Source: Aquimarina amphilecti (lineage in GTDB: Bacteria; Bacteroidota; Bacteroidia; Flavobacteriales; Flavobacteriaceae). From it: a stretch of DNA of 64,000 nt. This document shows positions 19,656-21,440 of this stretch, piece by piece. How positions within the stretch are numbered: the stretch's first letter is position 1; every line of letters begins with the position of its first letter. The position numbers were made by a program, and so were the translations under genes. The stretch lies in contig NZ_FOAB01000001.1 in the NCBI RefSeq assembly GCF_900109375.1, positions 558,001 to 622,000 on the forward strand, written 5' to 3'. The notes beneath the pieces were generated by a model. The model was not told the DNA's origin. It saw nothing but the letters and a program-made list of their open reading frames with translations, and ran no database searches.

Positions 19656-19845
19656 GAAAACACTCTTTTACTTCTCAAATATATCTTGTGAATTCAAGGT
19701 GGGTGTAAAGTTTTTCATCAAAAAGGGGTAACAAAATAATCTCGCATTTATATAAGTATGTATAGTCAAAACGCGTGCTTGATAGTTACATTTTTTGAGG
19801 TCGCCGAAAATCATAAAGAGTAGGCAAAATCTAAACATACAAATA

Positions 19846-20061
19846 ATGAAAAAGGTATTCTTATTACCCAAAGGCTTAGATAAGTTTTCTAAAAAAGAGC
19901 TTAAAAACATGGAAGCAATTTTAGGAGGAACTGTTGATGTGCCAGATATTATATATTACCCTACTAGTGGTGGTAGAAGATGTGCAGAAGGTCAGGTTTG
20001 GTCAGAAACATTAAGGAGATGTGTTGTAGTTGCCATTGGAACCCCTGTAGAGCATCGATAA
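19846..20061 (+). CDS. Candidate RiPP precursor peptide with GG leader
   Basis: A 71-residue peptide. Residues 1-28 look like the Bacteroidota natural-product leader: MKK start, an FSKKELKNMEAI helix and a Gly27-Gly28 double-glycine site of the type cut by C39 peptidases. The remaining 43-residue core contains Cys46-A-E-G-Q-V-Trp52-S-E-T-L-R-R-Cys59, a C-x2-G-x2-W-x6-C motif, preceded by a YYPTSGGRR stretch and followed by a hydrophobic tail VVVAIGTPVEHR. The ATG at 19846 is preferred to an upstream GTG-type start because it gives the canonical leader. A radical SAM/SPASM gene follows 155 bp downstream and is the likely modifying enzyme. No transporter or peptidase gene is adjacent. Confidence 0.72.
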   Translation: MKKVFLLPKGLDKFSKKELKNMEAILGGTVDVPDIIYYPTSGGRRCAEGQVWSETLRRCVVVAIGTPVEHR

Positions 20062-20097
20062 ATGGGTTGGTTTAAATAACCAGACATACATTAAGAC

Positions 20098-20121
20098 ATA
20101 GGTTGTTTTTTATCAACCTAT
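20098..20121 (+). repeat. 8-bp hairpin after the precursor gene
   Basis: ATAGGTTG (20098-20105) pairs with CAACCTAT (20114-20121) across an 8-nt T-rich loop. It could slow or partly end transcription after the precursor gene, although no T-run follows on the plus strand. Confidence 0.55.
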
Positions 20122-20124
20122 AAA

Positions 20125-20183
20125 ATACTAAGCGGAGTGGAGTAAACTTGTACAATTTTTATTTTCCAAACTTCGCTTAGTAT
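20125..20183 (+). repeat. Long hairpin between precursor and radical SAM gene
   Basis: ATACTAAGCGGAGT (20125-20138) pairs with ACTTCGCTTAGTAT (20170-20183), 14 bp with a single G-U pair, around a 31-nt loop. With the hairpin just before it, this makes the intergenic region strongly structured and may set the precursor to enzyme ratio by attenuation or mRNA protection. Confidence 0.65.
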
Positions 20184-20216
20184 GCTTAGAAAACATAACC
20201 TCTTAATTCTTTATTT

Positions 20217-21440
20217 ATGCAATTCGATGCCTTAATACTCAAAGTAGCTAGTAGATGTAATCTTAATTGTTCATATTGTTTTATGTATAACCTTGGTGAT
20301 ACTACGTATAAAGGGCAACCAAAATTTATGACATATGAAATGATTGATTCAATTTTAGAAAAGACAAAACGGTATATTCAAAAATATAATAGGAAAGAAT
20401 TCTCATTTATTTTCCATGGAGGTGAACCCTTATTGATTGAAAAAGATTTTTATAGAACTTTTATAACAAAAGCTAACGAAATCAAAGAGCAATTATCTAG
20501 TGTTATTTTTAAATATGATATCCAAACCAATGGAGTTTTAATAACTGAAGAGTGGTGTAAGTTGTTTAGAGAATTAAATATCTATCCAAGTACTAGCGTA
20601 GATGGAACCAAGGATGCACACGATATGTTTAGAGTGGATCATAGAGGAAATGGTAGTTATGATGAAGTATGTAAAGGAATAAAATTACTTAAAGAACAAA
20701 TAGGATATGCCGATACAGTTTGTGTAATAAATATCAAAGAAGATGCAAATGCTATTTATGAAAGTTTCAAGAGGATGAATGTAAATTCTGTAAATTTTTT
20801 AATTCCAGATTATACACATGATAATTTTCCGTTTGATGTAAATAAAACTGAGATGGCAGATTGGTTAATTCGATTGTTTGATATTTGGATAAAGGATGAA
20901 ACCCGATACAAAATCCCTATGTTTATTGGGTTAGTAAATAGATTGTTGGGTGTTAGTGAACAAACAAATAATGAATCTGCTGTTTTAGTAATCGAAACCA
21001 ATGGTGAAATAGAAGCAATAGATTCTTTAAAAGCTTGCGGGCATGGATTTACCAAATCTGGTATAAATGTATTAAAGAATGATTTTTCTGATATAAAGAA
21101 TTCTCCTTTAGGAAAATTGTATTTTGAAGAAAGTACTACAAAATTATGTGGTAAATGTCTTAAATGTCCAATTAAGGAAATTTGTCAAGGTGGTAGATTA
21201 GTACATAGATACAAAAAGGAAAATGGTTTTAATAATACATCTGTCTACTGTAGTGATCTTATAAAATTTATTGCGCATATTCAGAATACTCTTATGATTA
21301 TCTTTCCTAAACTATATAGTGAGAAAAATATTGATAGTATTATAAATGAAGAAATTGTTCAATTTTTGAGTAAGGAAAAAGTAAATTTAACTACAAACTC
21401 TATGTTTACTAAAGAGTTAGAATATTTTGCGTCAAAATAG
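20217..21440 (+). CDS. Radical SAM/SPASM peptide maturase (FxsB/GrrM-like)
   Basis: A 407-residue radical SAM enzyme. The Cx3Cx2C cluster motif is Cys14-N-L-N-Cys18-S-Y-Cys21, and the HGGEP SAM-binding motif is at 67-71. The C-terminal SPASM-type region has Cys274, Cys311, Cys314, Cys317, Cys323 and Cys345, able to hold auxiliary 4Fe-4S clusters. The GEIEAIDSLKACG segment and the CQGGRLVHRYKKENGFNN...YC ending resemble FxsB, GrrM and related maturases, some of which form cyclophane cross-links at aromatic residues. Placed directly after a GG-leader peptide gene, it should modify that core, possibly at Trp52. Tailoring type is inference; it is not an anaerobic sulfatase activator because no sulfatase is near. 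Confidence 0.85.
   Translation: MQFDALILKVASRCNLNCSYCFMYNLGDTTYKGQPKFMTYEMIDSILEKTKRYIQKYNRKEFSFIFHGGEPLLIEKDFYRTFITKANEIKEQLSSVIFKYDIQTNGVLITEEWCKLFRELNIYPSTSVDGTKDAHDMFRVDHRGNGSYDEVCKGIKLLKEQIGYADTVCVINIKEDANAIYESFKRMNVNSVNFLIPDYTHDNFPFDVNKTEMADWLIRLFDIWIKDETRYKIPMFIGLVNRLLGVSEQTNNESAVLVIETNGEIEAIDSLKACGHGFTKSGINVLKNDFSDIKNSPLGKLYFEESTTKLCGKCLKCPIKEICQGGRLVHRYKKENGFNNTSVYCSDLIKFIAHIQNTLMIIFPKLYSEKNIDSIINEEIVQFLSKEKVNLTTNSMFTKELEYFASK

Follow-up and report, generated by a model that had tools for sequence, protein, structure and literature searches.

A conserved precursor and radical SAM maturase gene pair of Aquimarina amphilecti predicted to yield a triceptide-like peptide

The window analyzed here, a stretch of 64,000 nucleotides from Aquimarina amphilecti (contig NZ_FOAB01000001.1, positions 558,001 to 622,000, forward strand), encodes a real two-gene unit of RiPP type, conserved where present, which consists of a short precursor with a double-glycine leader and a radical SAM peptide maturase. 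From the observed gene pair, residues, enzyme scores and C39 exporters we infer, with a probability of roughly 0.6, that the product is a triceptide-like RiPP in which a Trp52-Glu54 cyclophane would lie inside a Cys46-Cys59 disulfide loop, the peptide being cut and exported by a C39 exporter encoded elsewhere in the genome. The unit would most likely represent a new triceptide variant with a cysteine-framed Trp site. With this compact system, conserved in some marine Flavobacteriaceae, one could test if a single small loop can accommodate both a disulfide and a cyclophane made by radical chemistry.

Precursor gene and peptide

The precursor gene is laid out as follows:
19846..20061, + strand: precursor peptide gene, 71 aa, with an ATG start (open reading frame and alignment of relatives)
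19846..19929, + strand: leader, residues 1-28, with Gly27-Gly28 at its end as the predicted double-glycine processing site (Gly-Gly invariant in 16/16 rows)
19930..20058, + strand: core, residues 29-71, with Y37-x-P39-T40 followed by the Cys loop (invariant residues in the alignment)
19981..20022, + strand: C46-x5-W52-x6-C59 loop of constant spacing, predicted to hold a Trp52-Glu54 cyclophane enclosed by a Cys46-Cys59 disulfide

An initial annotation of the locus had described a 71-residue peptide with Gly27-Gly28, Cys46, Trp52 and Cys59, and a check of the open reading frames agrees with it in coordinates and residues. Indeed, Cys46, Trp52 and Cys59 are encoded at 19981-19983, 19999-20001 and 20020-20022, respectively, in a core motif C-x2-G-x2-W-x6-C. 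A mechanical list of open reading frames uses an upstream TTG (88 aa) as the start, and the ATG at 19846 is common to the aligned relatives. P39, T40, C46, W52, C59 and Gly27-Gly28 are invariant in the precursor alignment (16/16 rows). In a set of 21 rows (20 distinct), every precursor has exactly two Cys and one Trp with C-x5-W-x6-C spacing, and the two cysteines frame a loop around the single Trp, as the same annotation had proposed. The invariance of the PT and C-W-C letters in these 21 rows is partly due to selection of the rows, because the motif filter required PT and C-x5-W-x6-C, while the 16-row alignment and the listings of upstream open reading frames and loci were unfiltered. This set omits precursors identical to included rows (L025, L027-L031, L033, L034) and locus L070. 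Position 53 is Ser in all rows but one (His), and position 54, the i+2 position of Trp52, is Glu in 12, Asp in five, Asn in three and Thr in one, and is thereby chemically variable.

The window precursor matched no NCBIfam family at E 1. The Pfam family CBM_14 gave 13.6 bits over residues 44-61 only, and membership was dropped since this score is under the gathering score of 22.1; weak CBM_14 matches (E up to 1) were found in 14/16 precursor relatives, with a best E of 0.016.

Pairing, distribution and selection

A contig scan with the maturase gave 15 loci, namely eight from Aquimarina, six from Tenacibaculum and one on a Calothrix plasmid. When ATG-started open reading frames of at least 30 aa were sought on the same strand in the 1000 bases before the maturase, the same precursor was found in 14/14 flavobacterial loci (14/15 overall); no such precursor lies within 1000 bases upstream in the Calothrix locus (L023, maturase at 38 percent). 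With a precursor profile, 13 of the 66 same-genus genomes were positive and the maturase was next to the precursor in all 13; these genomes overlap with the 14 loci, several of which print identical precursors. One extra weak match (L036, E 0.008) was printed without a maturase. The unit is patchy, since only 13/66 genomes of its own genus carry it.

Wider searches were made at three ranks, those with the maturase using strict cut-offs and, for the order and the phylum, scoring at most four candidates per genome, so that their counts are lower bounds: (i) in the family (299 genomes), a search with the precursor as the single query gave two positive genomes and one with the maturase (E 1e-30) at least four genomes with six matches, of which those in the window and G179 lie beside a precursor of this type, (ii) among 395 order genomes (E 1e-60), at least 12 were positive with 13 matches, of which the window and G542 have this precursor type, and (iii) among 395 phylum genomes, at least eight matched, G1037 being the sole one not met before. 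The genus to which G542 belongs gave four matching genomes out of 150, two near E 1e-12 and two weakly. The initial annotation had proposed a RiPP-type locus and had set conservation of the precursor beside maturases in other flavobacteria as a test; such conservation was found in Aquimarina, Tenacibaculum and two further lineages (G179, G542), and such a conserved pairing of a precursor with a radical SAM gene for peptide modification is the arrangement expected of a radical SAM RiPP.

The nearest named relative by maturase is Aquimarina latercula (86 percent identity), against which the precursor has a dN of 0.043 and a dS of 0.575. Over eight named Aquimarina relatives the dN/dS of the precursor is 0.08 to 0.24, so that among near relatives selection maintains its reading frame. 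The ratio is 0.32 for L002, 0.52 for L016 and 0.85 for L043, and dS is saturated for L035. The pN of the leader is below that of the core in 12/12 comparisons. For the core, pN and pS are 0.47 and 0.42 against L016, and 0.49 and 0.44 against L043; in such distant pairs the core changes at about the rate of silent sites, and they tell little on selection.

In G179 and Tenacibaculum (L004; L016, L017, L020), the unit adjoins a convergent gene that by eye is lon protease-like, which suggests a common site. No title on the precursor-maturase locus was found in the literature searched, outside of which three primary cyclophane papers lie, nor was any literature joining radical SAM, RiPP and Tenacibaculum.

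Maturase and family placement

The maturase gene starts 155 bases after the precursor gene and has the following features:
20217..21440, + strand: radical SAM peptide maturase, 407 aa (NCBIfam and Pfam Radical_SAM profile matches)
20256..20279, + strand: radical SAM cluster motif C14-x3-C18-x2-C21, invariant in 21/21 rows
21156..21251, + strand: auxiliary-cluster cysteines C314, C317, C323 and C345, invariant in 21/21 rows and with counterparts in ChlB

Among NCBIfam models, the maturase scores best with YhhB (NF041707; 318.5 bits, cut-off 445), residues 3-360 of 407 matching positions 1-366 of the 369 of the model, and second-best with FxsB (TIGR04269; 284.4 bits, cut-off 370). These are followed by the anaerobic sulfatase maturase (TIGR03942; 188.1 bits, cut-off 349.45), XyeB (176.5 bits) and DynA (159.4 bits), both under their cut-offs, GrrM/OscB (TIGR04261; 122 bits, cut-off 310), PapB (103 bits) and DarE (101 bits). 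The maturase is under the curated cut-off of every named cyclophane family. The YhhB and FxsB models both match 20/20 aligned maturase members, that of the window included. The enzyme had first been described as FxsB/GrrM-like: the FxsB half of this description stands, with YhhB scoring higher still, but a GrrM type was rejected on a score far under those of YhhB and FxsB. The GG-Bacteroidales-type maturase model TIGR04148 was also rejected (64 bits, residues 3-161 only).

Anaerobic sulfatase maturases have two auxiliary clusters. In a profile alignment, a CxxCx5C...C cysteine set is common to the maturase, the sulfatase enzyme and ChlB (9gm3), the closest in sequence among solved chains; the anSME cysteines which we take to be the Aux I ligands are matched by no cysteine of the maturase when it is aligned with the sulfatase enzyme. 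The initial claim of intact SPASM cysteines is therefore valid for the former set and not for the latter cysteines. The maturase is expected to have, besides its radical SAM cluster, a single auxiliary cluster, because the CxxCx5C...C set is present and those presumed Aux I cysteines are not. A sulfatase activator was rejected on these missing cysteines and on the score (188 bits vs 318 for YhhB and 284 for FxsB); a grouping with such activators, which the initial annotation had named as refuting its proposal, thus did not appear. C274 is also invariant in 21/21 pairs and stands opposite a Thr in ChlB.

In a midpoint-rooted tree of 38 maturase rows, with L006 left out and with ChlB and the sulfatase enzyme as long branches, the 21 rows with a C-W-C precursor form one group (support 96/73, under the starred level); the family membership of the maturase is not settled by this tree.

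Sister loci and the predicted cross-link

Related maturases from this family and from one other family of the order adjoin other short precursors, whose cores contain aromatic-x-polar triplets: WEE-WGE-WGE-WAE (L007); YSE/YAE/FPE (L044, the locus of L005); YTE with YVK or YVR (L052, L053); YDK, YDR, YSK or YNR with FLK, FLR or FLL (L045, L008, L047, L050, L051); WTQ/WTK (L048); and HSR/HVN with WDR or WER (L054, L046). In 12 sister cores, which are mutually related and whose border with the leader is Gly-Gly in 8/12 and was set by eye in the other four, an Asp, Glu, Asn, Gln, Lys or Arg stands at i+2 of 25 of the 29 Trp, Tyr and His residues (shuffled mean 0.31; reached by 0/20000 shuffles). 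The count is 19/21 for Trp and Tyr only and 29/36 with Phe included (0/20000 shuffles each), and 8/8 for Trp alone (8/20000 shuffles). The 12-core set omits L006 and L055, which have no clear precursor, and L049, whose precursor is that of L047; with L006 added the count becomes 28/34, and with five representatives 13/15 (0/20000 each). A cross-link between Trp52 and Glu54 is predicted because the invariant site of the window core fits this sister pattern, which also agrees with the initial proposal of Trp52 as the likely site; the sister precursors indicate that its partner is probably the i+2 residue. Each maturase group having its own aromatic-x-polar cores, these loci make the substrate rules of the enzyme family testable.

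In one sister group, the maturase is immediately followed by a gene encoding some 271-283 aa (L047 2736-3566; L045, L049, L050, L051), whose copy in L047 matched no Pfam or NCBIfam family at E 0.01. Two tandem maturases are present in G646 (L046, L054), with one HSR/HVN/W-x-R precursor preceding the first and another such precursor following the second.

Enzymes forming three-residue cyclophanes join an aromatic residue i to the C-beta of residue i+2, the pairs given in the excerpted text of PMC11002830 being Trp with Arg, Asn or Asp, Phe with Asn or Ser, Tyr with Asp or Arg, and His with Ala or Arg. The window locus has the corresponding features of a triceptide, namely a conserved aromatic residue (invariant W52) and a suitable i+2 partner (E/D/N/T at position 54). 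Trp-Glu is not among the pairs of that text, and Glu would join the partner set as listed there if the prediction is true, adding a stable scaffold. Compared with known systems, (i) YhhB is the closest by score and would share the aromatic i to i+2 logic, but the sites reported for it are Tyr and His two places before an Arg (PMC11002830, same text) instead of Trp-x-Glu/Asp/Asn, and the window maturase is below the cut-off with 47 residues beyond the matched stretch; (ii) FxsB and ChlB, the latter a "multiple cyclophane synthase" by a title cited in the excerpt of PMC12636437, resemble the window unit in that FxsB is the second-best family and ChlB has counterparts of C314/C317/C323/C345, whereas the 407 aa maturase has no HExxH, unlike the fused ChlB-type proteins of that excerpt; and (iii) the XncB/OscB/MscB triceptides likewise join Trp to the C-beta of an Asn, Asp or Arg at i+2 (PMC11002830), but the XyeB and GrrM/OscB models stay below their cut-offs here, and the excerpted text mentions no pair of invariant Cys framing their Trp.

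In the proposed pathway, the precursor would be made with its double-glycine leader in a minimal two-gene unit and bound by the maturase, with its radical SAM cluster and single auxiliary cluster. The maturase would then link Trp52, the only Trp, to C-beta of Glu54 (Asp, Asn and once Thr in relatives) and so close a triceptide-type cyclophane of three residues. Cleavage after Gly28 and export of the core, 43 residues long, would fall to a C39-peptidase ABC exporter from elsewhere in the genome, and oxidation of Cys46 and Cys59 would form a disulfide around the cyclophane. As a guess, this exported compact peptide could serve in competition or signaling. Points that weigh against this pathway are the maturase scores under the family cut-offs, the mutual relatedness of the sister cores and their borders set by eye, the variable position 54, the lack of Trp-Glu among the listed pairs, the likeness of the loop to an unmodified disulfide loop, the fast change of the core in distant pairs and the Calothrix locus.

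It is unlikely, but conceivable, that the maturase acts on Tyr37 instead of or besides Trp52, joining it to Pro39 or to some other nearby residue, with Y/H-x-P-T as the true or a second site. Position 37 is Tyr in 19 and His in two of the 21 rows, next to the invariant P39 and T40, and the sites reported for YhhB in the excerpted text of PMC11002830 are Tyr and His; however, Pro is not listed there as an i+2 partner, and the sister pattern of an aromatic followed at i+2 by D/E/N/Q/K/R fits Trp52 and not Tyr37.

A different radical change at or near Trp52 (epimerization, hydroxylation, decarboxylation, or a C-N or C-O link) has a distinctly low probability. It would agree with a maturase that stays under every equivalog cut-off shown and that the DynA and DarE models match too (159 and 101 bits), but, the sulfatase maturase aside, the top three families (YhhB, FxsB and XyeB) are all named cyclophane-forming.

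It is improbable that the enzyme acts on the cysteines to form a thioether of sactipeptide or ranthipeptide type. Both Cys are invariant, the maturase is similar to PapB and 5/12 sister cores, all of one group, have a single Cys, yet the PapB score is far under those of YhhB and FxsB, and the common substrate is not cysteine, since the other 7/12 sister cores lack Cys entirely.

Finally, an unmodified double-glycine-leader disulfide peptide, with a maturase acting elsewhere, is very hard to credit: the loop does resemble an unmodified disulfide loop, namely the last loop of CBM_14, and other double-glycine-leader peptides of the genome are not flanked by a maturase within the stretch read, but the precursor and the maturase are paired across genera and the maturases form one group in the tree. 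The Trp52-Glu54 cyclophane remains the preferred reading.

Export

No exporter adjoins the precursor-maturase pair, and the initial annotation had accordingly called for a trans-acting double-glycine peptidase, for which the genome supplies two candidates. Indeed, there are five C39 matches in the genome, four of them over the Pfam cut-off, including two full C39-ABC exporters of 727 and 734 aa, each adjoining an open reading frame that by eye resembles a membrane-fusion partner. An invariant Gly-Gly (16/16) and a C39 peptidase in the genome are both features of double-glycine leader systems, and processing of the precursor by these exporters is a candidate route inferred from sequence. The leader and the C39-ABC exporters recall bacteriocin-type double-glycine peptides; the unit differs from these in its dedicated radical SAM maturase and its lack of an adjacent exporter. 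In the sister unit L048, a C39-like gene lies directly downstream (by eye).

Elsewhere in the same genome, a row of short double-glycine-leader peptides stands beside a C39 exporter and an HlyD-like gene (L056 1717-6955, by eye), and a Cys- and Tyr-containing double-glycine-leader peptide with no Pfam match lies near the second C39 exporter (L057 11268-11471).

RNA elements

Two RNA elements are predicted at the locus:
19794..19826, + strand: DUF805b-like cis element (RF02914) in the precursor 5' region, 35.1 bits, whose loop GCC could pair with a downstream GGC (pseudoknot)
20125..20183, + strand: hairpin in the precursor-maturase gap, from the fold of the 155-base gap

For the gap as a whole (155 bases), the fold has an energy of -39.5 kcal/mol (z -4.78; 0/200 shuffles as good). 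The hairpin stem is seen in an alignment of eight Aquimarina gaps, in which no pair of the main stem is changed on both sides and four such pairs occur in a smaller adjacent hairpin. A repeat pattern made for the hairpin gave no match in the genome and the window, and also misses the window's own copy. The hairpin possibly lowers maturase expression.

The RF02914 match (E 1.6e-07) just misses the gathering score of 35.6. At that score, the element lies before the precursor in 3/18 relative loci (L014, L021, L035), and past the maturase, before another double-glycine peptide, in L016 and L020. By eye, a recognizable form precedes the precursor in other Aquimarina; the form has a longer insert in Tenacibaculum, is diverged in G179 and is absent in L043. 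The pseudoknot triplets pair in 19/19 parsed precursor upstream regions (of 21), which 6/5000 shuffles equal. Among 38 RF02914 matches (11/11 of this genome and 27/32 from other genomes; L059-L069, L074-L100), the triplet before GAAAA and the triplet after GAGTA pair fully in 33 (shuffled mean 15.6; reached by 0/5000), with combinations such as GCC/GGC, ACC/GGT, TCC/GGA, ACT/AGT, CTC/GAG, TTC/GAA and CCC/GGG. These compensating triplets identify the DUF805b element as a predicted covarying pseudoknot. No literature on DUF805 as an RNA motif was found.

Under a broader reading, which is tentative and has less than even chances, the peptide would define a new triceptide subclass: a Trp-x-Glu/Asp/Asn cyclophane enclosed by a conserved disulfide would form a nested two-ring loop mimicking a chitin-binding-type Cys hairpin, possibly with a second cross-link at Tyr37, and the pseudoknotted DUF805b-like mRNA element would tie the unit to a regulon of exported proteins. 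A double-glycine-type peptide follows RF02914 in 5/11 cases in this genome and 2/27 elsewhere, and many of the other products look signal-peptide-like by eye.

DUF805b elements stand shortly before the start codons of double-glycine-type peptides and of other proteins judged by eye to be exported. In L059 (1558-3035, reverse complement), a DUF805b element is followed by a Cys-containing double-glycine peptide and then by an open reading frame that by eye is LanC-like.
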